Below are positions 36,261 to 63,100 of a DNA stretch of 64,000 bases, one piece after another. The translations under genes and the position numbers were made by a program. How positions within the stretch are numbered: the first letter of the stretch is position 1; each line of letters opens with the position of its first letter. Source of the stretch: Strix aluco (taxonomy: Eukaryota; Chordata; Aves; Strigiformes; Strigidae); assembly GCF_031877795.1 (NCBI RefSeq), contig NW_027436627.1, forward strand, positions 1 through 64,000, given 5' to 3'. Below the pieces are notes generated by a model, which was not told the origin of the DNA, did no database searches, and saw nothing but the letters and a program-made list of their open reading frames with translations.

Positions 36261-36346
36261 CCTGCACATCCTCTGCCAGGGCTCTGACTTCACCCCCAGC
36301 AGCTCCGCAATATTCTGGCTCCAACAGGCACCTGGACCCTTCCCCA
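36261..36346 (+). pseudogene. Old V relic, type 1
   Basis: [20 protein letters not shown]; duplicate of 23436-23522. Confidence 0.7.
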
Positions 36347-36349
36347 AAC

Positions 36350-37360: not shown

Positions 37361-37362
37361 GG

Positions 37363-37447
37363 GGAAGGGTCCAGGTGCCTGTTGGAGCCAGAACATTGCG
37401 GAGCTGCTGGGGGTGAAGTCAGAGCCCTGGCAGAGGATGAGCAGGGC
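37363..37447 (-). pseudogene. Old V relic, type 1
   Basis: Duplicate of 24541-24625. Confidence 0.7.
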
Positions 37448-37600
37448 AGGGATTGGGGCCAAAAGCCCAGGATTTGGGCTCGAGGAAGGGTTTTGTGCTT
37501 GGTGCAGGGGTCCAGGCTTGAGACAAGGCCTGGGTTTTGTGCAGGGATTTGGGGACAATGGTGGGATTTGGGGACACAGCACGGGGGTGTTGGGGCTCGG

Positions 37601-37927
37601 TGCCACCACCATCACTATAAGCACATTTGGCGCAGTAGTAGGTGGCCGTGTCGTCGTCCCTGAGGCTGCTCATCTGCAGCGTGACCGTGCTCTGGGCGTT
37701 GTCCCTGGAGATGGTGGAGCGACCTTTGACCGACGGCGCGTAGTTGGTGCTACCACCGGTGTTAATACTCGCGACGTATTCGAGCCCCTTCCCGGGCGCC
37801 TGTCGCACCCAGAACATGCCAAAGCTGCTGAAGGTGAAGCCGGAGCCCTTGCAGACGAGGGTGAGGGACCCCCCGGGGGCGCGGAGGCCTCCTCTGGTCT
37901 CCACCAATTCCACGGCCGCCCGCAGCC
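37601..37927 (-). pseudogene. IGHV: pVH26, pseudo-VH exon, full length
   Basis: Duplicate of pVH13 (CDR1 SFGMF, CDR2 [30 protein letters not shown]) but with RSTISRD instead of RFTISRD. The change involves more than one base in the codon context, which looks like a short conversion tract and not a point error. Confidence 0.93.
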
Positions 37928-38135
37928 CTGCGGAAGAAGAAAAGACAGAATTGAGTCGCCTGGTCCCGGCATCGACCCCCCAGGGTTCACCTGGCACCAG
38001 CCTCAGGGAGCAAATCTGGGCCCGTTGTGGGTCTGGGCTCAGGGCAGGGTCCGGGCTCAGGGTGAGGGTCTGGGCTGGCACCAAATGTCGCGAAGGGCTC
38101 CAGGATCAGGGCAGGGTCCCGGCTGGATCCAGACC

Positions 38136-38412
38136 ACCGGGGGGTCCCTGACCCTCGTCTGCAAGGGCTCCGGCTTCACCTTCAGCAGCTTCAACATGTT
38201 CTGGGTGCGACAGGCGCCTGGGAAGGGCCTTGAGTGGGTCGCGCTTATTACCAGTGGTGGTACCACAAGATACGCGCCGTCGGTCAAAGGTCGCTCCACC
38301 ATCTCCAGGGACAACGCCCAGAGCACAGTCACGCTGCAGATGAGCAGCCTCAGGGACGACGACACGGCCACCTACTACTGTGCCAAAGAACCTGGTAGTG
38401 GTGGTGGCACCA
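38136..38412 (+). pseudogene. IGHV: pVH27, pseudo-VH exon, FR1-truncated
   Basis: Duplicate of pVH14: [35 protein letters not shown] one-base length difference in the 3' flank (CCCAAACC) changes the downstream frame only. Confidence 0.92.
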
Positions 38413-38657
38413 ACCCCGGCCCTGAGCCCCAACGTCCCTCCGCCGTGTCCCAAACCCTCCCAAAACCGCTGAACCCATCCCAGAATCTCGCCCCGAGTCT
38501 TCACCGTTTGCCCCAACCCTTGACTTTCTGCACCATGAGTGACCGTTTGCCCCAAACTTCAAGTGTTGGCCCAAAACTTCAACCATTTGCCAACAAGTCT
38601 CGTCAATTTTTGCAACAAATCTCAGCCATTTACCCCAAGACTCATCTATTTTTACAG

Positions 38658-38718
38658 ACTCAGAATCATCTCGGTTGGAAAAGACCTTGAGGATCACCGA
38701 GTCCAACCATTCTGTAGA
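38658..38718 (-). mobile_element. CR1 LINE 3' tail fragment
   Basis: Duplicate of the tail at 25837-25895. Confidence 0.8.
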
Positions 38719-38900
38719 TTCTTGGGGCAAAGATTTTGGGGCAGATGTTGGGATTTTGGGGCAGATGTTGGGACTTTGGGATGCAGGGTTGGGACACTGA
38801 TGCTCGGGGTGAGGATTTGGGGGCGATGCTGGGATTTGGGGGTGCAGGTGGGGATTTCTGGGCTCTGGGCAGGGCCCTGGGACTGGTGCGAGGGTCTGGG

Positions 38901-38987
38901 GAAGGGTCCAGGTGCCTGTTGGAGCCAGAACATGGCGGAGCTGCTGGGGGTGAAGTCAGAGCGCTGGCAGAGGATGAGCAGGGCAGG
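38901..38987 (-). pseudogene. Old V relic, type 1
   Basis: Duplicate of 26081-26167. Confidence 0.7.
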
Positions 38988-39138
38988 GATTGGGGCCAAA
39001 AGCCCAGGATTTGGGGTCGAGGAAGGGTTTTGTGTTTGGTGCAGGGGTCCAGGCTTGAGACAAGGCCTGGGTTTTGTGCAGGGATTTGGGGACAAAGCTG
39101 GGATTTGGGGACACAGCACAGGGGTGTTGGGGCTCGGT

Positions 39139-39467
39139 GCCACCATAACCACTACCAGCACGTTTGGCGCAGTAGTAGGTGGCCGTGTCGTCGTCCCTGA
39201 GGCTGCTCATCTGCAGCGTGACCGTGCTCTGGGCGTTGTCCCTGGAGATGGTGAAGCGGCCTTTGACCGACGGCGCGTACCAGGTGCCACTACCACTGCT
39301 GTAAATACCTGCGAGCCACTCGAGCCCCTTCCCGGGTGCCTGTCGCACCCAGAACATGTCGAAGCTGCTGAAGGTGAAGCCGGAGCCCTTGCAGACGAGG
39401 GTCAGGGACACCCCGGGGGCCCGGAGGCCTCCTCCGGTCTCCACCAATTCCATGGCCGCCTGCAGCC
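39139..39467 (-). pseudogene. IGHV: pVH28, pseudo-VH exon, full length
   Basis: Duplicate of pVH15: [38 protein letters not shown]2 has the normal WVRQAPGKG. Confidence 0.93.
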
Positions 39468-39567
39468 CTGCAGAGAACAAAAAGGCCAAAATTGGGTCAC
39501 CTGGTCCCGGTATCACCCCCCAAATCCGTGCCCGGGGAGGGGGTCAGCGGGGCTGCGTCACACAATC

Positions 39568-39626
39568 CCAGAATCATCCAGGTTGGAAAAGCCCTTGAAG
39601 ATCCTCCAGTGCCACCATGAACCTCA
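39568..39626 (-). mobile_element. CR1 LINE 3' tail fragment (second variant)
   Basis: Duplicate of 26748-26806. Confidence 0.8.
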
Positions 39627-40031
39627 CACTGACCCTTCTCTGGGCCCAGCCGGGTCCCGGCCCCGATCCTGGAGCCCTGCGTGACCCCGGCCCTGAGCCC
39701 AGACCCTCACCCTGAGCCCGGACCCCCAACGGGCCCAGATTTGCTCCCCGAGGCTGGTGCCAGGGGAGACCCCGGGGGTCGATGCCCAGATCAGGCGGCT
39801 CAATTCTGTCCTTTCTTCTCCCTGCCAGCCCTCGGTAGAAGAAGAAAGAGCAGAATTGAGTCACCCGGTCCCGGCATAAACCCCCAGGGGATTCCCCAGC
39901 AACTTCTCCTCCTCCTCCTCGCACCCTCCCAGGTAGGACCCAGCTCCGCCGACCCCCTCCCCGGGTGCAGATTTGGGGGTTGACGCCGGGATCGGGTGAC
40001 ACAATTTTGGCCTTTTTTTTGTCTTCCGCAG

Positions 40032-40356
40032 GGCTGCGGGCGGCCGTGGAATTGGTGGAGACCGGAGGAGGCCTCCGGGTCCCCGGGGTGTCCCTGACCC
40101 TCGTCTGCAAGGGCTCCGGCTTCACCTTCAGCAGCTTCGGCATGAACTGGGTGCGACAGGCGCCCGGGAAGGGCCTCGAGTGGGTCGCGCTTATTACCAG
40201 CGGTGGTAGCACCTACTACGCGTCGTCGGTCAAAGGCCGCTTCACCATCTCCAGGGACAACGCCCAGAGCACGGTCACGCTGCAGATGAGCAGCCTCAGG
40301 GACGACGACACGGCCACCTACTACTGCGGGAAAGAACCTGGGGGCAGCTCGGCCCC
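40032..40356 (+). pseudogene. IGHV: pVH29, pseudo-VH exon, full length
   Basis: Duplicate of pVH16: [35 protein letters not shown]. Translation identical as far as compared. Confidence 0.93.
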
Positions 40357-40359
40357 GTC

Positions 40360-40860
40360 CCGCCAGGAAATCCCCCATCCAGGGGGTTTTTGGGGGGGGC
40401 AGCGATGCCGGGCTATGCCCCGCTCCCCTGCCCTGGGCCCGACATTCTGAGCTGCCCCTGGACCCTACCCTGAGCCCAGAGCCCCACCCCGACCTCGCTC
40501 TGGGCACCCAGACCCCGGCCTGCACCTGCCAGCTCCAGCACAGGGACCCCTAAGCCCTGCCCAGAGCCTACACCCCCCCGTCGTCACCCCAAACGTCTGC
40601 TCAGGACCAAACCTCTGCCCTCAGCCCAGACCCCAGCGTCACGCTCAGACGCGGGTGAGCTGCGTCCCCAAATTCCAGACAATCTCCCCAAAACTCTTCA
40701 GCTGAGCCTGAGCATCCCTGCGCTGCCTCAAGACTCCAGCGTCCATCGCAGGGGCACCCTAAGCCCAGCCCAGTGCCCAAATCCTCAGCTCTAGACCCGG
40801 CTGGATGCGGCACAACAGTCCCATCCTCTGTCCCCCTCCCACCCCCGGGGAGTTCTGTCC
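40360..40860. other. Spacer, no gene
   Basis: Duplicate of 27540-28040. Confidence 0.6.
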
Positions 40861-40948
40861 CCACTCCAGCCCCTTCCCGGGAGCCCCCAGGACGTTGCGG
40901 AGCTGCTGGGGGTGACGCTGGTGCCCTGACAGATTAGACAGAGGGCAG
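40861..40948 (-). pseudogene. Old V relic, type 2
   Basis: Duplicate of 28041-28128. Confidence 0.65.
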
Positions 40949-41099
40949 GGATTGGGGCCAAAAGCCCAGGATTTGGGGTTGAGGAAGGGTTTTGTGCTTG
41001 GTGCAGGGGTCCAGGCTTGAGACAAGTCCTGGGTTTTGTGCAGGGATTTGGGGACAATGGTGGGATTTGGGGACACAGCACAGGGGTGTTGGGGCTCGG

Positions 41100-41376
41100 T
41101 GCCACCACCACCACTATAAGCACGTTTGGCGCAGTAGTAGGTGGCCGTGTCGTCGTCCCTGAGGCTGCTCATCTGCAGCGTGACCGTGCTCTGGGCGTTG
41201 TCCCTGGAGATGGTGGAGCGGCCTTTGACCGATGACGCGTACCAGGTGCTACCACCACCGCTGTTAATACTCGCGACCCACTCGAGCCCCTTCCCGGGCG
41301 CCTGTCGCACCCACTGCATGTAGAAGCTGCTGAAGGTGAAGCCGGAGCCCTTGCAGACGAGGGTCAGGGACCCCTC
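41100..41376 (-). pseudogene. IGHV: pVH30, pseudo-VH exon, FR1-truncated
   Basis: Duplicate of pVH17: [36 protein letters not shown]; same junction with the 220-bp module at 41377-41605. Confidence 0.92.
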
Positions 41377-41605
41377 GATCGCCTCAGCCCCGCAGTTTTT
41401 AGCAGCTTTTCGCTTTTCAGACCCATTTTATCTTCCCTCCCGCGTTGCTCTTTCAGTTCCTGTCCCCGCACACCTGCAGGTCTCTGCGGAGCCTTCGCTG
41501 TCGCTCCGACCCCGTTCTGTCCTTCACGGGCTTCACCCAGTTGCTGGCGGCAGCTCCGCAGACAGACCCCGGCGTTCCCCGCACACCAGTGACGGGGGGT
41601 CGGGA
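41377..41605 (+). repeat. 220-bp module abutting FR1-truncated V
   Basis: Duplicate of 28557-28785. Confidence 0.7.
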
Positions 41606-41857
41606 ACGCTCCCCCACCCGCCCCCAGTTCCGTGGATGTTTCTGTACAAACCAGAGACCGGGGGAATCGATTTGGACAAAACTCAGGCCTTTTCCTCAGC
41701 AGGAGCTTCCCCGCCACAGCCTGGGGGGACTCTGGGACCCTGGGGGGGTCTGGGCACAGGGAGGGGCTGGGCTGGGGGCAGGGGCTGGGTTCAGGGCTCA
41801 GTATTAGGGTGTGGGCTTGGAGCCAGGATTGGGGCAGGGTCCTGGCTGGGTCCAGAA

Positions 41858-42137
41858 CCCCGGGGGGTCCCTGACCCTGGTCTGCAAGGGCTCCGGCTTC
41901 ACCTTCAGCAGCTTCAGCATGTACTGGGTGCGACAGGCGCCTGGGAAGGGGCTTGAGTACGTCGCGTATATTAACAAGGATGGTAGTAGCACCTTGTACG
42001 CGCCGTCGGTCCAAGGCCGCTTCACCATCTCCAGGGACAACGCCCAGAGCACGGTCACGCTGCAGATGAGCAGCCTCAGGGACGACGACACGGCCACCTA
42101 CTACTGCGCCAAACGTGCTTATAGTGGTGGTGGTGGC
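41858..42137 (+). pseudogene. IGHV: pVH31, pseudo-VH exon, FR1-truncated
   Basis: Duplicate of pVH18: [36 protein letters not shown]. Shares the GSS variant with pVH18 against pVH3. Confidence 0.92.
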
Positions 42138-42291
42138 ACCGAGCCCCAACACCCCCGTGCTGTGTCCCCAAATCCCAGCATTGCCTTCCAATCCCTGCAC
42201 AAAACCCAGGACTTGTCTCAAGCCTGGACCCCTGCACCAAGCACAAAACCCTTCCTCAACCCCAAATCCTGGGCTTTTGGCCCCAATCCCT

Positions 42292-42381
42292 GCCCTCTGT
42301 CTAATCTGTCAGGGCACCAGCGTCACCCCCAGCAGCTCCGCAACGTCCTGGGGGCTCCCGGGAAGGGGCTGGAGTGGGGAC
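42292..42381 (+). pseudogene. Old V relic, type 2
   Basis: Duplicate of 29472-29561. Confidence 0.65.
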
Positions 42382-42384
42382 AGA

Positions 42385-42880
42385 ACTCCCCGGGGGTGGG
42401 AGGGGGACAGAGGATGGGACTGTTGTGCCGCATCCAGCCGGGTCTAGAGCTGAGGATTTGGGCACTGGGCTGGGCTTAGGGTGCCCCTGCGATGGACGCT
42501 GGAGTCTTGAGGCAGCGCAGGGATGCTCAGGCTCAGCTGAAGAGTTTTGGGGAGATTGTCTGGAATTTGGGGACGCAGCTCACCCGCGTCTGAGCGTGAC
42601 GCTGGGGTCTGGGCTGAGGGCAGAGGTTTGGTCCTGAGCAGATGTTTGGGGTGACGACGGGGGGGTTTAGGCTCTGGGCAGGGCTTAGGGGTCCCTGTGC
42701 TGGAGCTGGCAGGTGCAGGCCGGGGTCTGGGTGCCCAGAGCGAGGTCGGGGTGGGGCTCTGGGCTCAGGGTAGGGTCCAGGGGCAGCTCAGAATGTCGGG
42801 CCCAGGGCAGGGGAGCGGGGCATAGCCCCGCATCGCTGCCCCCCCCAAAAACCCCCTGGATGGGGGATTTCCTGGCGGGA
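42385..42880. other. Spacer, no gene
   Basis: Duplicate of 29565-30060. Confidence 0.6.
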
Positions 42881-43206
42881 CGGGGCCGAGCTGCCCCCAG
42901 GTTCTTTCCCGCAGTAGTAGGTGGCCGTGTCGTCGTCCCTGAGGCTGCTCATCTGCAGCGTGACCGTGCTCTGGGCGTTGTCCCTGGAGATGGTGAAGCG
43001 ACCTTTGACCGACGGCGCGTAGTAGGTGCTACCACCGCTGGTAATTTGCGCGACCCACTCGAGCCCCTTCCCGGGCGCCTGTCGCACCCAGTTCATGCTG
43101 AAGCTGCTGAAGGTGAAGCCGGAGCCCTTGCAGACGAGGGTCAGGGACCCCCCGGGGACCCGGAGGCCTCCTCCGGTCTCCACCAATTCCACGGCCGCCC
43201 GCAGCC
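42880..43206 (-). pseudogene. IGHV: pVH32, pseudo-VH exon, full length
   Basis: Duplicate of pVH19: [35 protein letters not shown]. The head-to-head partner is lost in the N run that begins 109 bp beyond its 5' end. Confidence 0.93.
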
Positions 43207-43314
43207 CTGCGGAAGACAAAAAGGGCAAAAATTGAAGCGCCAGATTTTGACATCATTCTCCCAAATCCGCGCCCAGGGAGGGCGTTGGCGGGGCTGGGTC
43301 CTACCTGGGAGGGA

Positions 43315-43514
43315 NNNNNNNNNNNNNNNNNNNNNNNNNNNNNNNNNNNNNNNNNNNNNNNNNNNNNNNNNNNNNNNNNNNNNNNNNNNNNNNNNNNNNN
43401 NNNNNNNNNNNNNNNNNNNNNNNNNNNNNNNNNNNNNNNNNNNNNNNNNNNNNNNNNNNNNNNNNNNNNNNNNNNNNNNNNNNNNNNNNNNNNNNNNNNN
43501 NNNNNNNNNNNNNN
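43315..43514. other. Assembly gap (200 N)
   Basis: Exactly 200 N. Sequence before the gap matches up to 30494 and sequence after it resumes at 31145, so about 650 bp are missing by comparison with copy 1. That interval in copy 1 holds pVH20 (30739-31063). Confidence 0.95.
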
Positions 43515-44210
43515 TCCCGAGTCTTCACCATTTGCCCCAACCCTTGACTTTCTGCACCGTGAGTGACCGTTTGCCCCAAAGTTCAAGTGTTGGCCCAAAG
43601 CCTGAAGCATTTGCCCCCAACTCTCGTCCATTTTTGCAGCAAATCTCAACCATTTACCCCAAAATTTGTCCATTTTCATCTCAAGTCTCAACCATTTCCC
43701 CAACCTTGACCATTTCTGCCCCAAAACTCAACTATTTTCACCCCAATCTCAACCATTTGCCCCAAACCTCGACCATGTTTATCCCAAGTCTTGACCGTTT
43801 GCACTGAGTCTTGACTGGTTTTGCCCCAAACCTTGACTGGTTTTGCCCAAACTCAACCTTTTTCATTGGGTCTCAACCATATTTCCCCAACTTCAATTGT
43901 TTTTGCCCCAAACCTTCACTGGTTGTACCAGACATCGACCGTTTAGCAGCAAATCTTCACCATTTTTACCTCAAACCTCAACCAGTTGCCGGAGTCTCAA
44001 ACATTTGTGCCCCAAAACTCGACTGGTTTTGCCCCAAACCTTGACTCTTTGCACTGAGTCTCAACCATTTGCCCCAAACTTTGACTATTTGCCCCAAACT
44101 TTGACTGGTTGTAGCAAACATCAACTGTTTGCAGCAAATCTTGAGCATTTTTGCCTCAAATGTCAATCCGTTGCCCAAAGTCTCAACCTTTTTTGACCAA
44201 AACTTTGACA
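43515..44210 (+). repeat. TTGAC-type 20-bp minisatellite
   Basis: Duplicate of 31130-31835, with single-base length differences. Confidence 0.85.
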
Positions 44211-44437
44211 CAAGGGGAGACCCCCAGGTCCCCCAGTCCCTGCTCCAGGCTGGCACCGGCCTCGGGGGAGCAAATTTGGGATCCTGGGGGGGTCTGGGCA
44301 CAGGGAGGGGGCTGGGCTGGGGGCAGGGTCTGGGCTCAGGGTGAGGGTCTGGGCTCAGGGCCGGGGTCACGCAGGGCTCCAGGATCGGGGCCGGGTCCTG
44401 GCTGGGCCCAGAGAAGGGTCAGTGTGAGGTTCATGGT

Positions 44438-44496
44438 GGCACTGGAGGATCTTCAAGGGCTTTTCCAACCGAGAGGATTCTGGGATTCTCTGACCC
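44438..44496 (+). mobile_element. CR1 LINE 3' tail fragment (second variant)
   Basis: Duplicate of 32070-32128. Confidence 0.8.
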
Positions 44497-44583
44497 AGCC
44501 CTGCCGACCCCCTCCCCAGGTGCAGATTTGGGGATCGATGCTGAGACCGGGCGACCCAATTTTGGCCTTTTTGTTCTCCGCAG

Positions 44584-44909
44584 GGCTGCGGGCGGCCGTG
44601 GAATTGGTGGAGACCGGAGGAGGCCTCCGGGTCCCCGGGGTGTCCCTGACCCTCGTCTGCAAGGGCTCCGGCTTCGATTTCAGCAGCACCTACATGAACT
44701 GGGTGCGACAGGCGCCCGGGAAGGGGCTCGAGTTTATCGCGTATATTAACTACGCTGCTGGCGCCTGGTACGCTCCGGCCTTCAAAGGTCGCTCCACCAT
44801 CTCCAGGGACAACGCCCAGAGCACGGTCACGCTGCAGATGAGCAGCCTCAGGGACGACGACACGGCCACCTACTACTGCGCCAAAGGTTATACTGGTAGA
44901 AGTGGCACC
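44584..44909 (+). pseudogene. IGHV: pVH33, pseudo-VH exon, full length
   Basis: Duplicate of pVH21: [38 protein letters not shown]. One change in the D-like tail (RSG for RGG). Confidence 0.93.
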
Positions 44910-45052
44910 GAGCCCGGCCCTGTGTCCCCAAATCCCAGCATTGTCCCCAAATCCCTGCACAAAACCCAGACCTTGTCTCAAGCCTGGACCCCTGCACCAA
45001 GCACAGAACCCATAATCAACCCCAAATCCTGGGCTTTTGGCCCCAATCCCTG

Positions 45053-45140
45053 CCCTGCTCATCCTCTGCCAGGGCTCTGACTTCACCCCCAGCAGCTCCG
45101 CAATGTTCTGGCTCCAACAGGCACCTGGACCCTTCCCCAA
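45053..45140 (+). pseudogene. Old V relic, type 1
   Basis: Duplicate of 32685-32772. Confidence 0.7.
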
Positions 45141-45228
45141 ACCCTCGCACCAGTCCCAGGGCCCTGCCCAGAGCCCGGAAATCCCCACCCTGCACCCCCA
45201 AATCCCAGCATCTCCCCCGAAATCGTTA

Positions 45229-45358
45229 ACACTCATTAACACAGCAGCGCTAATTCCCAGAACATACTCGAGCCCCTTCCCCAGCTCCTCTCACACCCAG
45301 CTCATGCTGGTGCCGCTGAAATCGAAGCCGGAGCCCTCCCAGGACACGGCCTGGGACA
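45229..45358 (-). pseudogene. Old V relic of the third type
   Basis: Duplicate of 32861-32990 ([26 protein letters not shown]). Confidence 0.7.
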
Positions 45359-45662
45359 GGGACTGGGGCTCAGGTCAGGGTTTGGGCTGGGTGCAGGGTT
45401 TGGGGTGAGGACGGGGGCGTTTAGGCTCCAGGCAGGGCTTAGGGGTCCCTGGGTTGGACTGGCAGGTGCAGGCTGGGGTCTGGGTGCCCAGAGCGGGGTC
45501 GGGGCGGGGCTCTGGTCTGGGGGAAAATGGTCGTGGTTTGGGCCAGGTCTGTGGGCTGGAGGCAGGGGATCAGGCTGGGGGTGATGGTGGGGGCTGAGGG
45601 CAGGGTCCAGGGAGGGGCTGGGATGTGGGGACACGGCGCAGGGATGTTGGGACTTGGGGAAG
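45359..45662. other. Spacer, no gene
   Basis: Copy of 32991-33294, noticeably more diverged than the rest of the duplication. Confidence 0.5.
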
Positions 45663-45988
45663 GGGGTCGGGGCCAATATCAGCATTTTTGGTGCAGTAGT
45701 AGGTGGCCGTGTCGTCGTCCCTGAGGCTGCTCATCTGCAGCGTGACCGTGCTCTGGGCGTTGTCCCTGGAGATGGTGAAGCGGCCTTGGACCGACGGCGC
45801 GTATCTTGTGGTACCACCACTGGTAATAAGCGCGACCCACTCGAGGCCCTTCCCAGGTACCTGTCGTGCCCATCCCATGGCGTAGGGGCTGAAATCGAAG
45901 CCAGAGGCCTTGCAGACGAGGGTCAGGGACCCCCCGGGGGCCAGGAGGCCTCCTCCAGTCTCCACCAATTCCACGGCCGCCCGCAGCC
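45663..45988 (-). pseudogene. IGHV: pVH34, pseudo-VH exon, full length
   Basis: FR1 has GGLLAPGGS and [10 protein letters not shown] (Gly to Ala). CDR1 PYAMG, FR2 [17 protein letters not shown]2 [29 protein letters not shown]. The 3' part matches pVH22 and the CDR2 matches pVH14/27. The frame is open. Copy 2 of the 10-kb duplication ends at its 3' edge. Confidence 0.93.
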
Positions 45989-46340
45989 CTGCGGAGGGAA
46001 AAATTGAGGCACCTGGTCCCGGCATCAACCCCCAGGGGATCCTCCAGTATCTTCTCCTCCTCCTCCTCACACTCTCCCATGTAGGACCCAGCCCCACTGA
46101 GCCCTCCCCGAGCACAGATTTGGGGGTCAATACCAGGACCAGGAGACTCAATTCTGACAAATTTGAGTCAGCTGGTCCTGGCATCGACCCCCAGGGGATT
46201 CCCCAGCACCTTCTTCTCCTCCTCCTCCTCACACCCTCCCAGGTAGGACCCAGCCCCGCCAACACCCTCCCTGGGCGCAGATTTGGGAGAATGATGTCAA
46301 AATCTGGCGTTTCAATTTTTGCCCTTTTTGTCTTCCGCAG

Positions 46341-46673
46341 GGCTGCGGGCGGCCGTGGAATTGGTGGAGACCGGAGGAGGCCTCCGGGTCCCCGGGGTGT
46401 CCCTGACCCTCGTCTGCAAGGGCTCCGGCTTCGATTTCAGCAACGCCTACATGTACTGGGTGCGACAGGCACCCGGGAAGGGGCTTGATTACGTCGCAAG
46501 AATTAACAGCGATGGTAGTAGCACAGAGTACGCGCCGTCGGTCAAAGGCCGCTTCACCATCTCCAGGGACAACGCCCAGAGCACGGTCACGCTGCAGATG
46601 AGCAGCCTCAGGGACGACGACACAGCCACCTACTTCTGCGCCAAAAGTGCTGATGGTGGTGCTTATGGTGGCA
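46341..46673 (+). pseudogene. IGHV: pVH35, pseudo-VH exon, full length
   Basis: FDFS subgroup: CDR1 NAYMY, FR2 [17 protein letters not shown]2 [17 protein letters not shown], then [15 protein letters not shown] (Tyr to Phe before the Cys, only here). The frame is open. Its 3' flank is cut by the CR1 element at 46742. Confidence 0.93.
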
Positions 46674-46741
46674 CCGAGCCCCAACACCCTTGTGATGTGT
46701 CCCCAAATCCCAGCATCGAACCTAAATCCCTGCACCAAACC

Positions 46742-47300
46742 CAGGCCTTGTCACAGAATCCCAGAATCATCTCGGTTCGAAGGGATCTTGAAGCTCCTCC
46801 AGTCCAACCATTAACCCAGCACTGACCGTTCCCAACTCCACCAGATCCCTCAGCGCTGGCTCAACCCGACTCTTCAACCCCTCCAGGGATGGGGACTCCC
46901 CCCCTGCCCTGGGCAGCCCATTCCAACGCCCAACAGCCCCTTCTGCAAAGAAATCCTTCCTAAGAGCCAGTCTGACCCTGCCCTGGCGCAGCTTGAGGCC
47001 ATTCCCTCTTGGCCTGGCGCTGGGTCCTTGGCTCAAGAGACTCCTCCCCCCTCTCTGCACCCTCCTTTCAGGGAGTTGTAGAGGGCCAGGAGGTCTCCCC
47101 TCAGCCTCCTCTTCTCCAGACTCAACCCCCCCAGGTCCCTCAGCCGCTCCCCACCAGACCTGCCTTTCCTAAACCCGCTGACTGGGCCTGACCATCTGGT
47201 TGTCCCACACGTGGTGTGTGATGGTGCTCAGGAGGAGCTGCTCCATCAGCTTCTCAAGCTGACAGGCCTGGAATTTCCCGGATCATCCTTCCGACCCTTC
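46742..47300 (-). mobile_element. CR1 LINE, 5'-truncated with internal deletion
   Basis: On the - strand the element starts with reverse-transcriptase coding sequence [13 protein letters not shown] (about 47250-47300), matching CR1 DDPGNYRPVSL. At about 47190-47215 it jumps to the 3' region (CCTCTACAACTCCCTGAAAGG, GGCTGCCCAGGGCAGG, GTTGGACTGGAGGAGC) and ends at the CR1 terminus CGAGATGATTCTGGGATTCTG at about 46742. It is not intact: the rest of the RT domain and the first open frame are absent. Confidence 0.85.
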
Positions 47301-47302
47301 GT

Positions 47303-47340
47303 GAAGTCAGAGCCCTGGCAGAGGATGTGCAGGGCAGGGA
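47303..47340 (-). pseudogene. Old V relic, type 1, truncated by CR1
   Basis: Only CQGSDFT and the upstream codons remain; the CR1 element begins where PSSSAMFW should follow. The insertion is therefore younger than the relic. Confidence 0.65.
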
Positions 47341-47489
47341 TTGGGGCCGAAAGCCCAGGATTTGGGCTCGAGGAAGGGTTTTGTGCTTGGTGCAAGGGTC
47401 CAGGTTTGAGACAATCCTGGGTTTTGTGCTGGGATTTGGGGACAATGTTGAGATTTGGGGACACAGCACAGGGGTGTTGGGGCTTGGTG

Positions 47490-47817
47490 GCACCATAAGC
47501 AGCACCAGCACCATCTCTGGCGCAGTAGTAGGTGGCCGTGTCGTCGTCCCTGAGGCTGCTCATCTGCAGCGTGACCGTGCTCTGGGCGTTGTCCTTGGAG
47601 ATGGTGAAGCAGCCTTTGACCGACGACGCGTAGTAGGTGCTACCACCGTTGGTAATAAGCGCGACCCACTCGAGGCCCTTCCCGGGCGCCTGTCGCACCC
47701 AGTTCATGCTGAAGCTGCTGAAGGTGAAGCCGGAGCCCTTGCAGACGAGGGTCAGGGACCCCCCGGGGGCCCGGAGACCTCCTCCGGTCTCCACCAATTC
47801 CACGGCCGCCCGCAGCC
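47490..47817 (-). pseudogene. IGHV: pVH36, pseudo-VH exon, full length
   Basis: CDR1 SFSMN, CDR2 [18 protein letters not shown]3 begins CFTISKD instead of RFTISRD (two changes, including a new Cys), then [15 protein letters not shown] as in pVH12. The frame is open. Head-to-head with pVH37. Confidence 0.93.
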
Positions 47818-48237
47818 CTGCGGAAGACAAAAAAAAGCCAAAATTGTGTCACCCGATGGCGGCGTCAACCCCCAAATCTGCACCCGGGGAGGGGGTCGGC
47901 GGAGCTGGGTCCTACCTGGGAGGGTGCGAGGAGGAGGAGGAGAAGTTGCTGGGGAATCCCCTGGGGGTTTATGCCGGGACCGGGTGACTCAATTCTGCTC
48001 TTTCTTCTTCTACCGAGGGCTGGTGGGGAGAAGAAAGGACAGAATTGAGCCGCCTGATCTCGGCATCGACCCCCGGGGTCTCCCCTGGCACCAGCCTCGG
48101 GGAGCAAATCTGGGCCCGTTGGGGGTCCGGGCTCAGGGTGAGGGTCTGGGCTCAGGGCCGGGGTCACGCGGGGCTCCAGGATCGGGGCCGGGACCCGGCT
48201 GGGCCCAGAGAAGGGTCAGTGTGAGGTTCATGGTGGC

Positions 48238-48292
48238 ACTGGAGGATCTTCAAGGGCTTTTCCAACCTGGATGATTCTGGGATTGTGTGACG
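48238..48292 (+). mobile_element. CR1 LINE 3' tail fragment (second variant)
   Basis: GGAGGATCTTCAAGGGCTTT, then TCCAACCTGGATGATTCTGG, 5' of pVH37. Confidence 0.8.
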
Positions 48293-48381
48293 CAGCCCCG
48301 CTGACCCCCTCCCCGGGCACGGATTTGGGGGGGTGATACCGGGACCAGGTGACCCAATTTTGGCCTTTTTGTTCTCTGCAG

Positions 48382-48711
48382 GGCTGCGGGCGGCCGTGGA
48401 ATTGGTGGAGACCGGAGGAGGCCTCCGGGCCCCTGGGGGGTCCCTGACCCTCGTCTGCAAGGGCTCCGGCTTCACCTTCAGCAGCACCTACATGGGATGG
48501 ATGCGACAGGCACCCGGGAAGGGGCTCGAGTTCGTTGCGCTTATTAACAGCGGTGGTGGTACCACCTGGTACACGCCGTCGGTCAAAGGCCGCTTCACCA
48601 TCTCCAGGGACAACGCCCAGAGCACGGTCACGCTGCAGATGAGCAGCCTCAGGGACGACGACACGGCCACCTACTACTGCGCCAAAGGTTATACTGGTAG
48701 AGGTGGCACTG
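48382..48711 (+). pseudogene. IGHV: pVH37, pseudo-VH exon, full length
   Basis: CDR1 STYMG, FR2 [17 protein letters not shown]2 [30 protein letters not shown]. The acceptor is TTGTTCTCTGCAG. The frame is open. Confidence 0.93.
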
Positions 48712-48851
48712 AGCCCGGCCCCGTGTCCCCACATCTCAACATTGTCCCCAAATCCCTGCATAAAACCCAGGACTTGTCTCAAGCCTGGACCCCTGCACCA
48801 AGCACAGAACCCATAATCAACCCCAAATCCTGGGCTTTTGGCCCCAATCCC

Positions 48852-48938
48852 TGCCCTGCACATCCTCTGCCAGGGCTCTGACATCACCCCCAGCAGCTCC
48901 GCCATGTTCTGGCTCCAACAGGCACCTGGACCCTTCCC
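48852..48938 (+). pseudogene. Old V relic, type 1
   Basis: [20 protein letters not shown], 3' of pVH37. Confidence 0.7.
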
Positions 48939-49146
48939 CAAACCCTCGCACCAGTCCCAGGGCCCTGCCCAGAGCCCAGAAATCCCCACCCTGCACCCCC
49001 AAATCCCGGCATCTTCCCCCAAATCCTCACCCCGAGCATCAGTGTCCCAACCCTGCATCCCAAAGTCCCAACATCTGCCCCAAAATCCCAACATCTGCCC
49101 CAAAATCCCAACATCTGCCCCAAAATCTTTGCCCTAAGAATCTACA

Positions 49147-49207
49147 GAATGGTTGGACTCGGTGATCTTCAAGGTCTTTTCCAACCGAGATGATTCTGTG
49201 AGTCTGT
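49147..49207 (+). mobile_element. CR1 LINE 3' tail fragment
   Basis: Same as 16175-16236, offset 32971 bp with its flanks. Confidence 0.8.
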
Positions 49208-49450
49208 AAAAATAGATGAGTTTTGGGGAAAATGGTTGAGATTTGCTGCAAAAATTGACGAGACTTGTTGGCAAATGGTTGAAGTTTTGGGCCAACACTT
49301 GAAGTTTGGGGCAAACGGTCACTCAAGGTGCAGAAAGTCAAGGGTTGGGGCAAACGGTGAAGACTCGGGGCGAGATTCTGGGATGGGTTCAGCGGTTTTG
49401 GGAGGGTTTGGGGACACGGCGGAGGGACGTTGGGGCTCAGGGCCGGGGTG

Positions 49451-49727
49451 GGAGCCATTACCAGCACCATCTTCTCTGGCGCAGTAGTAGGTGGCCGTGT
49501 CGTCGTCCCTGAGGCTGCTCATCTGCAGCGTGACCGTGCTCTGGGCGTTGTCCCTGGAGATGGTGAAGCGGCCTTCAACCGACGGCGCGTAGAAGGTGCC
49601 ACTACTATCGTCATGAATACCCGCGACGTACTCGAGCCCCTTCCCGGGCGCCTGTCGCACCCAGAGCATGGTGAAGCTGCTGAAGGTGAAGCCGGAGCCC
49701 TTGCAGACGAGGGTCAGGGACCCCCCG
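49451..49727 (-). pseudogene. IGHV: pVH38, pseudo-VH exon, FR1-truncated
   Basis: Copy of pVH5: [37 protein letters not shown], truncated by the 220-bp module at 49728-49955. Its 3' flank is mirrored by that of pVH39 (coordinates sum to 99975). Confidence 0.92.
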
Positions 49728-49955
49728 ATCGCCTCAGCCCCGCAGTTTTTAGCAGCTTTTCGCTTTTCAGACCCATTTTATCTTCCCTCCCGCGTTGCTC
49801 TTTCAGTTCCTGTCCCCGCACACCTGCAGGTCTCTGCGGAGCCTTCGCTGTCGCTCCGACCCCGTTCTGTCCTTCACGGGCTTCACCCAGTTGCTGGCGG
49901 CAGCTCCGCAGACAGACCCCGGCGTTCCCCGCACACCAGTGACAGGGGGTCAGGA
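49728..49955 (+). repeat. 220-bp module abutting FR1-truncated V
   Basis: Copy of the module next to pVH38; a further copy at 16757-16985 abuts pVH5 in the same arrangement. Confidence 0.7.
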
Positions 49956-50198
49956 ACAGAGGACGCACAGGGACCCCCGGGGGTCTGGACCCAGCCGGGA
50001 CCCTACCCCAATCCTGGAGCCCAGCTCAACATTTGGTCCAAGCCCAGACCCTCACCCTGAGCCCGGACCCAGCCCAGAGCCCAGCCCCTCCCTGTGCCCA
50101 GACCCCCCAGGATCCCAGATTTGCTCCCCCGAGGCTGGTGCCAGCCTGGAGCAGGGACCGGGGGGACCTGGGGGTCTCCTCTTGTGCCCCTACCCCAG

Positions 50199-50528
50199 GG
50201 CTGCGGGTGGCTGAGGAGCTGGTCGAGACCAGAGGAGGCCTCCAGATGCCTGAGGGGTCCCTGACCCTCGTCTGCAAGGGCTCCGGCTTCACCTTCAGCA
50301 GCTTCGACATGCAATGGCTGCGACAGGCGCCCGGGAAGGGCATCGAATTCGTTGCGGCTGTTGGCACCATTGGTGACACCTACTATGCACCGTCAGTCCG
50401 AGGTCGCTCCACCATCTCCAGGGACAACGCCCAGAGCACGGTCACGCTGCAGATGAGCAGCCTCAGGGACGACGACACGGCCACCTACTACTGCGCCAGA
50501 GAAGATGGTGCTGGTAATGGCTCCCACC
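50199..50528 (+). pseudogene. IGHV: pVH39, pseudo-VH exon, full length, divergent FR1
   Basis: FR1 reads [20 protein letters not shown], unlike any other exon here. The acceptor context (CCCCTACCCCAG) matches that of the short V stubs and not TTCCGCAG. CDR1 SFDMQ, WLRQ and CDR2 [16 protein letters not shown] are as in pVH1; the tail [15 protein letters not shown] is as in pVH5/38. The frame is open. This is a three-part mosaic. Confidence 0.93.
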
Positions 50529-50769
50529 CCGGCCCTGAGCCCCAACGTCCCTCCGCCGTGTCCCCAAACCCTCCCAAAACCGCTGAACCCATCCCAGAAT
50601 CTCGCCCCGAGTCTTCACCGTTTGCCCCAACCCTTGACTTTCTGCACCATGAGTGACCGTTTGCCCCAAACTTCAAGTGTTGGCCCAAAACTTCAACCAT
50701 TTGCCAACAAGTCTCGTCAATTTTTGCAACAAATCTCAACCATTTTCCCCAAAACTCATCTATTTTTAC

Positions 50770-50830
50770 AGACTCACAGAATCATCTCGGTTGGAAAAGA
50801 CCTTGAAGATCACCGAGTCCAACCATTCTG
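50770..50830 (-). mobile_element. CR1 LINE 3' tail fragment
   Basis: Inverted counterpart of 49147-49207. Confidence 0.8.
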
Positions 50831-51044
50831 TAGATTCTTGGGGCAAAGATTTTGGGGCAGATGTTGGGATTTTGGGGCAGATGTTGGGATTTTGGGGCAG
50901 ATGTTGGGACTTTGGGATGCAGGGTTGGGACACTGATGCTCGGGGTGAGGATTTGGGGGAAGATGCCGGGATTTGGGGGTGCAGGGTGGGGATTTCTGGG
51001 CTCTGGGCAGGGCCCTGGGACTGGTGCGAGGGTTTGGGGAAGGG

Positions 51045-51130
51045 TCCAGGTGCCTGTTGGAGCCAGAACATTGCGGAGCTGCTGGGGGTGAAGTCAGAGC
51101 CCTGGCAGAGGATGAGCAGGGCAGGGATTG
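51045..51130 (-). pseudogene. Old V relic, type 1
   Basis: [20 protein letters not shown] on the - strand, 3' of pVH40. Confidence 0.7.
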
Positions 51131-51265
51131 GGGCCAAAAGCCCAGGATTTGGGGTTGATTATGGGTTCTGTGCTTGGTGCAGGGGTCCAGGCTTGAGACA
51201 AGTCCTGGGTTTTGTGCAGGGATTTGGGGGCAATGCTGGGATTTGGGGACACGGGGCCGGGCTCG

Positions 51266-51593
51266 GTGCCACCTCTACCAGTATAACCTTTGGTGCAGTA
51301 GTAGGTGGCCGTGTCGTCGTCCCTGAGGCTGCTCATCTGCAGCGTGACCGTGCTCTGGGCGTTGTCCCTGGAGATGGTGAAGCGGCCTTTGACCGCCGGC
51401 GCGTAGCCTGTCCAACCACCATCGTTGGTAATAGCCGCGACGTACTCGATGCCCTTCCCGGGCGCCTGTCGCACCCACTGCATGCCGACACTGCTGAAGG
51501 TTTAGCCGGAGCCCTTGCAGACGAGGGTCAGGGACCCCTCGGGGGCCCGGAGGCCTCCTCCGGTCTCCACCAATTCCACGGCCGCCCGCAGCC
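51266..51593 (-). pseudogene. IGHV: pVH40, pseudo-VH exon with an in-frame stop
   Basis: CDR1 SVGMQ, FR2 [17 protein letters not shown]2 [30 protein letters not shown]. At 51502-51504 the FR1 Phe codon (GSGFTFS) is TAA, giving GSG-stop-TFS. This is the only stop I found inside a pVH exon. Two adjacent bases differ from the usual TTC. Otherwise close to pVH24. Confidence 0.93.
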
Positions 51594-51737
51594 CTGCGGA
51601 AGACAAAAAGGCCAAAATTGAGGTGCCCGATCTCAGCATTGACCCCCGGGAGGGTGTTGGTGGGGCTGGGTCCTACCTGGGAGGGTGTGAGGAGGAGGAG
51701 GAGAAGAAGGTGCTGGGGGATCCCCTGGGAGTGATGG

Positions 51738-51773
51738 AATTGGTTCCGTGGAATTCCACAGTCGCCCGCAGCC
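51738..51773 (-). pseudogene. V-exon 5' stub
   Basis: CCCCAG|GGCTGCGGGCGACTGTGG, then the break at GGAATTCCACGG; same as 20770-20805. Confidence 0.6.
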
Positions 51774-51979
51774 CTGGGGTGGGGGCACAAGGGGAGACCC
51801 CCAGGTCCCCCCGGTCCCTGCTCCAGGCCGGCACCAGCCTTGGGGGAGCAAATCTGGGACCCTGGGGGGGTCTGGGCACAGGGTGAGGGTCTGGGCTCAG
51901 GGCCGGGGTCACGCAGGGCTCCAGGATCGGGGCCGGGTCCCGGCTGGGCCCAGAGAAGGGTCAGTGTGAGGTTCATGGT

Positions 51980-52036
51980 GGCACTGGAGGATCTTCAAGG
52001 GCTTTTCCAACCTGGATGATTCTGGGATTGTGTGAC
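51980..52036 (+). mobile_element. CR1 LINE 3' tail fragment (second variant)
   Basis: GGAGGATCTTCAAGGGCTTT, then TCCAACCTGGATGATTCTGG, 5' of pVH41. Confidence 0.8.
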
Positions 52037-52125
52037 CCAGCCCCGCCGACCCCCTCCCCAGGGACAGATTTGGGGGGTGATGCCGAGACTGGGCGCCTCA
52101 ATTTTGGCCTTTTTGTCTTCCGCAG

Positions 52126-52456
52126 GGCTGCGGGCGGCCGTGGAATTGGTGGAGACCGGAGGAGGCCTCCGGGCCCCCGGGGGGTCCCTGACCCTCGTCT
52201 GCAAGGGCTCCGGCTTCACCTTCAGCAGCTTCGACATGTTCTGGGTGCGACAGGCGCCCGGGAAGGGCCTTGAGTGGCTCGCAGGTATTTACAGCGATGG
52301 TAGTGGCACCTCCTACGCGCCGTCGGTCAAAGGCCGCTTCACCATCTCCAGGGACAACGCCCAGAGCACGGTCACGCTGCAGATGAGCAGCCTCAGGGAC
52401 GACGACACGGCCACCTACTACTGCGCCAAACGTGCTGGTAGTGGTTATGGTGGCCC
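52126..52456 (+). pseudogene. IGHV: pVH41, pseudo-VH exon, full length
   Basis: CDR1 SFDMF, FR2 [17 protein letters not shown]2 [30 protein letters not shown]. The frame is open. Related to pVH15 (same CDR1 and tail) with the CDR2 type of pVH23. Confidence 0.93.
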
Positions 52457-52611
52457 CGAGCCCCAACACCCCTGTGCTGTGTCCCCAAATCCCAGCTTTG
52501 TCCCCAAATCCCTGCACAAAACCCAGGACTTGTCTCAAGCCTGGACCCCTGCACCAAGCACAAAACCCTTCCTCGACCCCAAATCCTGGGCTTTTGGCCC
52601 CAATCCCTGCC

Positions 52612-52698
52612 CTGCTCATCCTCTGCCAGGGCTCTGACTTCACCCCCAGCAGCTCCGCCATGTTCTGGCTCCAACAGGCACCTGGACCCTTCCCCAGA
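52612..52698 (+). pseudogene. Old V relic, type 1
   Basis: [20 protein letters not shown], 3' of pVH41. Confidence 0.7.
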
Positions 52699-52882
52699 CC
52701 CTCGCACCAGTCCCAGGGCCCTGCCCAGAGCCCGGAAATCCCCACCCTGCACCCCCAAATCCCAGCATCTCCCCCCAAATCCTCACCCCGAGCATCAGTG
52801 TCCCAACCCTGCATCCCAAAGTCCCAACATCTGCCCCAAAATCCCAACATCTGCCCCAAAATCTTTGCCCCAAGAATCTACA

Positions 52883-52943
52883 GAATGGTTGGACTCGGTG
52901 ATCCTCAAGGTCTTTTCCAACCGAGATGATTCTCTGAGTCTGT
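52883..52943 (+). mobile_element. CR1 LINE 3' tail fragment
   Basis: GGTTGGACTCGGTGATCCTC...CCAACCGAGATGATTCT, forward. Confidence 0.8.
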
Positions 52944-53189
52944 AAAAATAGATGAGTTTTGGGGTAAATGGTTGAGATTTGTTGCAAAAATTGACGAGAC
53001 TTGTTGGCAAATGGTTGAAGTTTTGGGCCAACACTTGAAGTTTGGGGCAAATGGTCACTCATGGTGCAGAAAGTCAAGGGTTGGGGCAAATGGTGAAGAC
53101 TCGGGGCGAGATTCTGGGATGGGTTCAGCGGTTTTGGGAGGGTTTGGGGACACGGCGGAGGGATATTGGGGCTCAGGTCCGGGGTTGGT

Positions 53190-53515
53190 GCCACCACCAC
53201 TACCAGGTTCTTTGGCACAGTAGTAGGTGGCCGTGTCGTCGTCCCTGAGGCTGCTCATCTGCAGCGTGACCGTGCTCTGGGCGTTGTCCCTGGAGATGGT
53301 GGAGCGGCCTTGGACAGACGGCTCGTAGTAGGTGTTACTACTATCGTCGTCAATACTCGTGACGTACTCGAGCCCCTTCCCAGGCGCCTGTCGCACCCAA
53401 CTCATGGCGAAGCTGCTGAAGGTGAAGCCGGAGCCCTTGCAGACGAGGGTCAGGGACCCCCCGGGGGCTCGGAGGCCTCCTCCGGTCCCCACCAATTCCA
53501 CGGCCGCCCGCAGCC
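53190..53515 (-). pseudogene. IGHV: pVH42, pseudo-VH exon, full length
   Basis: FR1 [13 protein letters not shown]1 SFAMS, FR2 [17 protein letters not shown]2 [37 protein letters not shown]. The frame is open. Followed upstream by another - strand member (pVH43), so the head-to-head pairing ends here. Confidence 0.93.
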
Positions 53516-53679
53516 CTGCGGAAGACAAAAAAAAGGCCAAAATTGAGGCGCCCGGTTCCGGCATCGACCCCAAATCCGCTCCCCGGGAGGGTGTTGGTGG
53601 GGCTGGGTCCTACCCGGGAGGGTGCGAGGAGGACGAGGAAGAGAAGGTGGAGGTGTAAAAAGAGTTGAGTTCTGCTGCA

Positions 53680-54180
53680 TATGGTCCATATTTGGTAGAA
53701 TCTGTCAAAGTTTGGGGCAAATAATCAAAGTTTGGAGGAAATGGTTGAGACTCAGTGCAAATAGTCAAGGTTTGGGTCAAAAATAGTCAAGCTTTGGGGC
53801 AGAAACAGCCGAGATTTGAGGCAAATTGTTGGACTTGGGGCAAAAATGGTTGAGGTCTGAGGTAAAAATGGTTGAGATTTGCTGTATATGGTCAAAGATT
53901 GGTACAACTGGTCAAGTTTAGGTCAAACGGTCAAAGTTTGGGGCAAAACCAGTCAAGACGCAGTGCAAAGAGTTAAGACTTGGGCAAAAATGGTCGAGGT
54001 TTGGGGCAAATGGTTGAGACTTGGGGTGAAAATAGATGAGTTTTGGGGAAAATGGTTGAGATTTGCTGCAAAAATGGTTGAGACTCGGGGGCAAATGGTT
54101 GAGGTTTTGGGTGGAACAGTGGAAGTTTGGGGCAAACGGTCACACATGGTGCAGAAAGTCAAGGATTGGGGCAAACAGGG
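53680..54180 (-). repeat. TTGAC-type 20-bp minisatellite
   Basis: GTCAAAGTTTGGGGCAAA units, as at 12180-12860 but more diverged. Confidence 0.8.
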
Positions 54181-54274
54181 AAGACTCGGTGCGAGATTCT
54201 GGGATGGGTTCAGCGGTTTTGGGAAGTTTTTGGGACAAAGCGGAGGGATGTTGGGGCTCAGGGCCGGGATCGGT

Positions 54275-54606
54275 GCCACCACCACCACCATCATCATCAT
54301 CTTCCTTGGCGCAGTAGTAGGTGGCCGTGTCGTCATCCCTGAGGCTGCTCATTTGCAGCGTGACCGTGCTCTGGGCGTTGTCCCTGGAGATGGTGAAGCG
54401 GCCTTCGACCGACGGCGCGTAGGAGGTGCTACCACTGGTGCCAATAATCGCGACGTACTCGGGCCCCTTCCCGGGCGCCTGTCGCACCCAGAGCATGTTG
54501 TAGCTGCTGAAGGTGAAGCCGGAGCCCTTGCAGACGAGGGTCAGGGACCCCCCGGGGGCTCGGAGGCCTCCTCCGGTCCCCACCAATTCCACGGCCGCCC
54601 GCAGCC
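54275..54606 (-). pseudogene. IGHV: pVH43, pseudo-VH exon, full length, last before the V gene
   Basis: FR1 [13 protein letters not shown]1 SYNML, FR2 [14 protein letters not shown] (Leu to Pro), CDR2 [32 protein letters not shown]. The D-like tail has four GAT codons followed by five GGN codons, unlike the others. The frame is open. A leader-like remnant with its donor lies at about 54710 on the - strand. Confidence 0.93.
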
Positions 54607-59847: not shown

Positions 59848-59855
59848 ATGCAAAT
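59848..59855 (+). promoter_or_regulatory. Ig octamer ATGCAAAT
   Basis: Exact ATGCAAAT, the Oct-1/Oct-2 site of Ig V promoters, in the forward orientation normal for heavy-chain V genes. It lies 73 bp upstream of the chosen start codon. I did not notice another exact octamer near the pVH exons. Confidence 0.92.
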
Positions 59856-59928: not shown

Positions 59929-60393
59929 ATGGGCACCCACTTGGCCTCCACCCTCCTCCTCCTCCTCGCGGCCCTGCCAGGTAGGACCCGACCGCGGCGA
60001 TTCGGGGGGGCGAAAAAAAAGCGCCGAAATCAGGCGGATTAATATTTCGGGGGGGACTTATTTTTTTTTTTTTTGTCTTCCGCAGGGCTGCGGGCGGCCG
60101 TGGAATTGGTGGAGACCGGAGGAGGCCTCCGGGCCCCCGGGGGGTCCCTGACCCTCGTCTGCAAGGGCTCCGGCTTCACCTTCAGCAGCTTCGGCATGGG
60201 ATGGGCGCGAGAGGCGCCGGGGAAGGGCCTCGAGTACGTCGCGAGTAGTAACACCGGTGGTAGCACCGACTACGCGCCGTCGGTCAAAGGCCGCTTCACC
60301 ATCTCCAGGGACAACGCCCAGAGCACGGTCACGCTGCAGATGAGCGGCCTCAGGGACGACGACACGGCCACCTACTACTGCGCCAAAGCTACT
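59929..60393 (+). CDS. IGHV: Complete, rearrangeable heavy-chain V gene
   Basis: The germline V that would be joined to D and J to make antibody heavy chains. Leader exon 59929-59980 reads [18 protein letters not shown], with donor CCAG|GTAGGA. The intron is 59981-60085 (105 bp, phase 1), with acceptor TTCCGCAG. The V exon is 60086-60393. The mature start is [13 protein letters not shown]1 is SFGMG, FR2 [17 protein letters not shown]2 [18 protein letters not shown]3 [19 protein letters not shown], ending YYCAKAT at the RSS. Cys22, Trp36 and Cys92 equivalents are present. FR2 has Ala37 and Glu39, where nearly all pVH exons have Val and Gln. The upstream ATG at 59896 is in frame and has a good Kozak context, but it would add 11 residues before a normal signal peptide and lies too near the TATA box. 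It is the only V here with promoter, leader and RSS. Confidence 0.93.
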
Positions 60394-60432
60394 CACGGCG
60401 ACGCCGAACCGCGGCGCCCGTGGCAAAAAACC
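60394..60432 (+). other. 23-bp-spacer recombination signal of the V gene
   Basis: Heptamer CACGGCG at 60394-60400 directly after the last coding base, spacer 60401-60423 (exactly 23 bp), nonamer CAAAAAACC at 60424-60432. The consensus is CACAGTG/ACAAAAACC. The essential CAC and the A-core of the nonamer are kept; heptamer and nonamer each have two mismatches. Confidence 0.9.
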
Positions 60433-62224: not shown

Positions 62225-62590
62225 GCACGGCCCCCGAGCACCTTCACGTGGCACCCAGACGCTGGCAACGAGCCCACGTGGCCCTTCCATGGGTCCCCCC
62301 ACAAATCCCTTCGCTGCGCCCCAAAAAATCCCAGAAAACTTTTGGACAGTTTTGACCCAAAAATTGGGATACTTTGGCCCTTTTGGTGCCTCTTGGCCAA
62401 AATCTGGCCCCAGTTTGGCCCTTTTGGCCCTTCTCAACCCAAATCTGGGCCAAATTTGGCCCTTTTGCCCCCAATCGGGACGTTTGGGCCATTTCGAATG
62501 GTTTTGGGTTATTTTGGGTGCGGTTGGACGAGCTCAGCCTGTGGCCGAGGAGGGGGCTGGGCCGGGGGTGGATTTTGGGCTGAATCGGGG
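62225..62590. other. V-D spacer, mostly low-complexity; no gene
   Basis: Degenerate TTTGGCCCTTTTGGCC units. Two CACGTG E-boxes lie near 62245 and 62275. No RSS or exon seen before the D segment. Confidence 0.5.
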
Positions 62591-62618
62591 GGATTTTGTC
62601 CCACCCTGTGTCACCGTG
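62591..62618 (-). other. 5' 12-bp-spacer RSS of the D segment
   Basis: Nonamer GGATTTTGT at 62591-62599 (consensus GGTTTTTGT), spacer 62600-62611 (exactly 12 bp), heptamer CACCGTG at 62612-62618 (consensus CACTGTG). Confidence 0.88.
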
Positions 62619-62652
62619 GGGTGCTGGTGCTGGTGGTGGTTGGGGTGCTTAT
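62619..62652 (+). CDS. IGHD: Heavy-chain D segment
   Basis: 34 bp between two 12-RSSs. In the frame starting at 62620 it reads GAGAGGGWGAY, 11 codons without a stop, made of GGT/GCT codons with one TGG and a final TAT. The Gly/Ala/Tyr content matches the D-like tails fused to the pVH exons (for example YAGAGAYGG in pVH4). It lies 2.2 kb downstream of the V gene in the same orientation. It supplies part of CDR3. A flat RSS on both sides and the right spacing make a chance match unlikely. Confidence 0.88.
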
Positions 62653-62680
62653 CACGGTGGTGCAGGAGGTGACAAAAATG
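62653..62680 (+). other. 3' 12-bp-spacer RSS of the D segment
   Basis: Heptamer CACGGTG at 62653-62659, spacer 62660-62671 (exactly 12 bp), nonamer ACAAAAATG at 62672-62680 (consensus ACAAAAACC). It is the reverse complement of the 5' heptamer. Confidence 0.9.
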
Positions 62681-63100
62681 CTGATTTTCCTCTTTCTGCC
62701 CGTTTCTGCAGGAAATCTGTGACACACAAATGCCGCCGGGGGCTCAGCTCCACCCCCGGGGGGGCCTTTCCCGGGGGACCAGCCCCCGCTGGGCCCCACT
62801 TCCCCTTCCCGGCCGCTTCCGCACCAAATCTGGGGATATTTTACCCTTTTTATACCGTTTCCCCCCCCCTCCCCAGCTACAGACCTCTTACACCCTTTAC
62901 ACCCACATTTGCTCAAAAAGGACATTTTTTTGGCCCTTCAATATCACTTTTGCTAAAAGTGCTGGGGCCTTTCCTTTTAGGGCCTTTTTTTGCCCCAAAT
63001 CTGAGCACGTTTCACCTTTATTGCCCATTTTGCAACAAATCTAGAGACGTTCTCCCCGATTTTGTCAGTTTTCACCCCATTCTGGGCATGTTCTGGCTCT
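62681..63100. other. Region after D, no further D or J recognised
   Basis: Mixed unique and C/T-rich sequence. I looked for more 12-spacer RSS pairs and for a J-type WGxG motif with a 23-spacer RSS and saw none. Confidence 0.5.

Follow-up and report, generated by a model that had tools for sequence, protein, structure and literature searches.

The window, i.e. the whole stretch of 64,000 bases that was analysed, corresponds to bases 1-64000 of scaffold C162 (96,089 bases). Toward its end lies a V gene, preceded by an array of V-like reading frames and followed by a short segment (D1) that is flanked on both sides by recombination signal sequences (RSSs). The features of the scaffold on which the analysis is based are as follows.

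12976..54595, both strands: 43 V-like frames in an array, 21 of plus and 22 of minus orientation, sharing 76-92% identity with the V at 60097
59848..59855, plus strand: octamer ATGCAAAT, located 5' of the V leader
59929..59980, plus strand: V leader exon, 17 codons plus base 1 of a split Gly codon
60086..60393, plus strand: V exon, open and joined in frame to the leader by a splice, with a mature part that starts at 60097 and runs to the heptamer
60394..60432, plus strand: 23-RSS of V, consisting of CACGGCG, 23 bp and CAAAAAACC, with a score of 13.7
62440..62960, plus strand: core of the repeat unit of D1, with copies at 65353-65867 (D2) and 68586-69098 (D3) of C162
62591..62618, minus strand: 5' 12-RSS of D1, with the heptamer CACGGTG, the 12-bp spacer ACACAGGGTGGG and the nonamer ACAAAATCC
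62619..62652, plus strand: coding segment of D1, 34 bp, whose frame 2 reads GAGAGGGWGAY and is flush with the 3' heptamer
62653..62680, plus strand: 3' 12-RSS of D1, with the heptamer CACGGTG, the 12-bp spacer GTGCAGGAGGTG and the nonamer ACAAAAATG
65533-65562, C162 beyond the window: D2, a 30-bp core with a 12/12 RSS pair
68763-68792, C162 beyond the window: D3, a 30-bp core with a 12/12 RSS pair

Both spacers of D1 were exactly 12 bp, and the two RSSs were observed as mirror images around the 34-bp segment. In a preliminary description, 62591-62680 had been read as a D segment with this arrangement, which proved correct to the base, and its identity as a D segment is supported by anatomy and position. 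The stop-free Gly/Ala/Trp/Tyr reading given there is that of frame 2, and the other two frames are open as well. The same description had placed the D 2.2 kb downstream of V in the order pseudo-V, V, D. The V exon indeed stops at 60393, 2.2 kb upstream of D1, and the order holds, with the pseudo-V frames lying on both strands. V, bearing its 23-RSS, has the same orientation as D1. The heptamers of D1 (both CACGGTG) and V (CACGGCG) differ from the consensus RSS heptamer, CACAGTG, and recombination at these non-consensus heptamers may be less efficient. Matches with 23- or 24-bp spacers at 62610, 65524 and 68754 were dismissed as chance; in each, a heptamer-like CACAGGG lies inside a D spacer.

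The V exon was identified as a V-set domain (Pfam PF07686, E 3e-10) and matched antibody VH chains in PDB. The octamer ATGCAAAT upstream of the leader corresponds to a V promoter element. Framework 2 of the V gene opens with WARE (60202-60213), where the pseudogenes commonly have WVRQ. Most of the interval between V and D1 (60620-62210) is filled by a minisatellite with units of roughly 20 bp (cccaagagcgtttgagggca type, judged by eye).

When the V at 60097 was used as a protein query against the genome, 56 matches were obtained, 44 of which were on C162, including V itself; a stop lay inside the match in one of these 44. The matches on other contigs were distributed among C24 (nine, 45-48% identity), C12, C2 and C18 (one each). 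RSSs and tails were checked in the 40 of the 44 C162 matches that carry the exact FR3 motif. A good 23-RSS was observed only at the V at 60097 (13.7), and the other 39 frames scored 9.2 or less. The array appears to be of the gene-conversion donor type. The array contains a direct repeat of 7.56 kb (22937-30493 and 35758-43313; 99.5% identity) that stops next to 200 N at 43315-43514 and reflects either recent duplication or an artefact of the assembly. It also contains an inverted repeat of 4.2 kb (11804-15961 and 28067-32212; 98.2%), which is one element of a mosaic made up of V blocks in both orientations. Upstream of the array, at 2001-8000 of the window, the sequence is very AT-rich (10-22% GC), and its second part contains simple repeats of the AAT type. 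The nine VH-like frames of C24 lie on the minus strand at 3008287-3160985 and may be VH-delta genes belonging to a second TCR delta locus; such a locus with VH-delta genes is known in birds.

Inspection by eye of the 39 V-like frames indicated that 33 continue past the Cys codon into D-like tails of the Gly/Ala/Ser/Tyr type; five of the remaining tails read EPGGSSAP and one reads NADIGPDP. D1 aligned without gaps and in the same reading frame with the tail starting at 15706, with 24 identities in 28 positions. Among 500 dinucleotide-shuffled versions of D1, one reached the score of this alignment, and none of 500 reached the score of D1 summed over the 24 distinct tails. One V pseudogene carries fused D1-like sequence. 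D2 and D3 bore no resemblance to the pseudogene tails: their best score was reached by 210 of 500 shuffles and their summed score by 96 of 500.

The preliminary description had also advised a search past position 64000 for more Ds and J. Two Ds, D2 and D3, were gained in this way, and the scanned sequence yielded no J. C162 therefore carries at least three D segments, which are spaced 2.9 and 3.2 kb apart. The RSSs of D1, D2 and D3 are identical in every letter (28 of 28 per signal and 56 of 56 for both), and a DNA search in which the 521-bp core around D1 served as query retrieved these three units again. Further 5' than about 62430, the unit of D1 is diverged. A run of 200 N follows D3 (C162:70654-70853), and the sequence past this gap consists of different repeats, in which a script scan combined with partial reading revealed no RSS pair and no J.

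The core of D1 differs strongly, in sequence and in length, from that of D2 and D3, whereas the RSSs are identical and the near flanks almost so. D2 and D3 share one 30-bp core (0 of 30 sites differing, with 9 of 482 differing elsewhere). Between D1 and D2, 11 of 30 core sites differed in addition to a 4-bp indel, compared with 14 of 481 sites in the RSSs and flanks (Fisher p 1e-8, a flattering value in that the sites of a repeat are non-independent and the contrast is a single one). Between D1 and D3, the corresponding differences were 11 of 30 and 16 of 483; these flank counts vary with the pairwise alignment, since the 5' flank gave 3 differences for D1-D2 and 10 for D1-D3, yet none for D2-D3. 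The Gly-containing frame of D2 reads AVGSGSWGDD, and the Gly-containing frames of D1 and D2 are both flush with the 3' heptamer despite the difference of 4 bases in length. The plain reading of the core divergence is diversifying selection on the D cores together with homogenising gene conversion of the flanks, and a bolder one is replacement of the D core by RAG in the germline. That either germline process renews the Ds while keeping their signals is a tentative proposal, which we consider rather unlikely.

A C1-set search of the genome gave 45 matches, of which eleven were on C163, a contig other than the V/D scaffold:

60318, 58192, 56652 and 54997, minus strand: C1-set matches
37849-38070, minus strand: single C1-set match, between the mu-like and alpha-like blocks
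25049 to 30734, plus strand: four C1-set matches
7139 and 4984, minus strand: C1-set matches

Isotypes were assigned from three of these eleven matches by comparison with solved chains: the match at 54997 was mu-like, that at 30477 was alpha-like, and that at 4984, whose fourth match was a chicken IgY heavy chain, was upsilon-like. Heavy-chain constant exons were observed on C163. Read along the minus strand, their apparent order of mu-like, inverted alpha-like and upsilon-like exons fits the avian order; titles of papers on chicken and duck name the arrangement of mu, inverted alpha and upsilon. The assignment of the genome to a bird is based on this layout and on the type of locus. In C162, a motif scan for J yielded six WG/FG words, of which four fall within repeats of the V array; none of the six adjoins a 23-RSS-like site. 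C163 was scanned for J at 60001-72479 and otherwise read in pieces around the C1-set matches. There were 23 words at 60001-68000, all on the minus strand and nearly all in one repeat, with no RSS-like site above the threshold, and one word at 68001-72479 with no RSS-like site. A J whose motif is different or whose RSS is weak would escape such scans. J is presumably located between C162 and C163, in the gap that separates them. According to a survey of vertebrate genomes (PMC13320880), bird IGH loci fall on short contigs, the likely reason being their position on dot chromosomes with sequencing dropout.

The possibility that D1 is a chance pair of mirrored RSS-like words in repeat-rich DNA was considered, since single matches of like quality do arise by chance in a 64-kb window: when the consensus RSS was scanned with up to 3 mismatches, 2 matches were found in the window, and the 100 shuffles gave a mean of 1.19, with 2 or more matches in 30 of them. 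The mirrored pair of D1 was scored with an RSS matrix that was set by hand, its weights being based on the general conservation of RSSs, and reached 37.3 (19.3 + 18.0). With the same matrix, the best pair was 23.8 among 120 synthetic 96-kb contigs and 24.8 among 1000 synthetic 8.65-kb stretches with the composition of 62000-70653, in which any pair occurred in 14 of 1000; the reversed contig contained no pair. Furthermore, the degenerate pair pattern TTTTGT, 12, CACYGTG, 12-42, CACRGTG, 12, ACAAAA was matched three times in the genome of 1.41 Gb, each time on C162, and its backwards control was not matched anywhere. This pattern was composed after the element had been seen and requires exact nonamer cores, so that Ds with other nonamers are missed by it. 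Given a score of 37.3 against a null maximum of 24.8 and the three genomic occurrences of the pattern, the pair of RSSs is significant, although each RSS alone is not. These values, the presence of three copies with identical signals, and the position of D1 downstream of a V bearing a 23-RSS make an origin by chance extremely improbable.

It is equally hard to regard D1 as a T-cell-receptor D segment of the beta or delta type. Such Ds are likewise flanked by RSSs on both sides; however, in TRB and TRD one spacer is of 12 bp and the other of 23 bp, whereas D1 has 12 and 12 and is accompanied by a heavy-chain V and by V pseudogenes. On the other hand, D1 might be a D by descent that has fallen out of use, owing to weak heptamers (its own and that of V) or to preference for D2 or D3. 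The non-consensus heptamers of V and D speak for this. D1 is no worse than D2 and D3, however, because its RSSs are identical to theirs, and the genome search with the pair pattern revealed no 12/12 pair outside the three units. Disuse of D1 is therefore judged improbable, if less so than the two preceding explanations.

The most probable reading, to which we assign a probability of about 0.86, is that D1 is a germline IGHD of a bird that is able to be used. The locus is a bird IGH of the chicken and mallard type, a known kind, and D1 is a real but ordinary part of it. We infer that J carries a 23-bp spacer and that RAG1/RAG2 would pair and cut the 3' 12-RSS of D1 and the 23-RSS of J to form DJ. 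The 5' 12-RSS of D1 would then pair with the 23-RSS of V (60097-60393) to form VDJ, which would be expressed and would acquire diversity through gene conversion, with the upstream V pseudogenes and their D-like tails as donors. Under the 12/23 rule, spacers of 23 bp in V and presumably in J, together with 12/12 in D, would make the use of a D obligatory and disfavour D-to-D joining.

This organization was compared with bird loci as they are described in the respective reports. The chicken (Gallus gallus) IGH is stated to contain one VH, 58 VH pseudogenes, about fifteen DH and one JH (PMC3308330), and elsewhere 16 IGHD are reported, 12 of which were analysed since some are identical, along with V pseudogenes fused to IGHD-like sequence (PMC10917233). 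The present locus resembles it in one usable V, many V pseudogenes that do not bear an RSS, D-like fusions and several Ds, the comparison being one of locus descriptions. In contrast, three Ds are visible here before the gap, 2.9 and 3.2 kb apart, whereas a construct with chicken D-locus sequence has inter-D spacers of about 100-200 bp (PMC6008532). The mallard (Anas platyrhynchos) locus is described as having one functional IGHV, 57 IGHV pseudogenes, some of them reversed, five IGHD and one IGHJ (PMC13060830). The single functional V, the pseudogenes partly in reverse orientation and the several Ds are shared with the present locus, although three Ds and 43 V-like frames were counted here, both numbers being limited by the scaffold. 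That paper also speaks of paired 12- and 23-RSSs for IGHD, whereas D1 to D3 have 12-bp spacers on both sides. Gene conversion from V pseudogenes is described for chicken (PMC10917233) and mallard (PMC13060830). The passages considered from a study of zebra finch and Gentoo penguin (PMC5389807) report mu, alpha and upsilon isotypes, a single leader in expressed chains, read as one rearranging VH, and more than two JH segments in each species; they contain no description of a germline D. The mu-, alpha- and upsilon-like exons and the one rearranging-type V found here are similar to these, whereas no JH was seen in the scans of C162 and C163:60001-72479.

D segments such as these offer no long frame that ORF-based annotation could detect. 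The order of V, D and pseudogenes provides a germline reference for reading the CDR3s of the species, and comparison of D1 with D2/D3 offers a way to test whether D cores evolve more rapidly than the signals that flank them.
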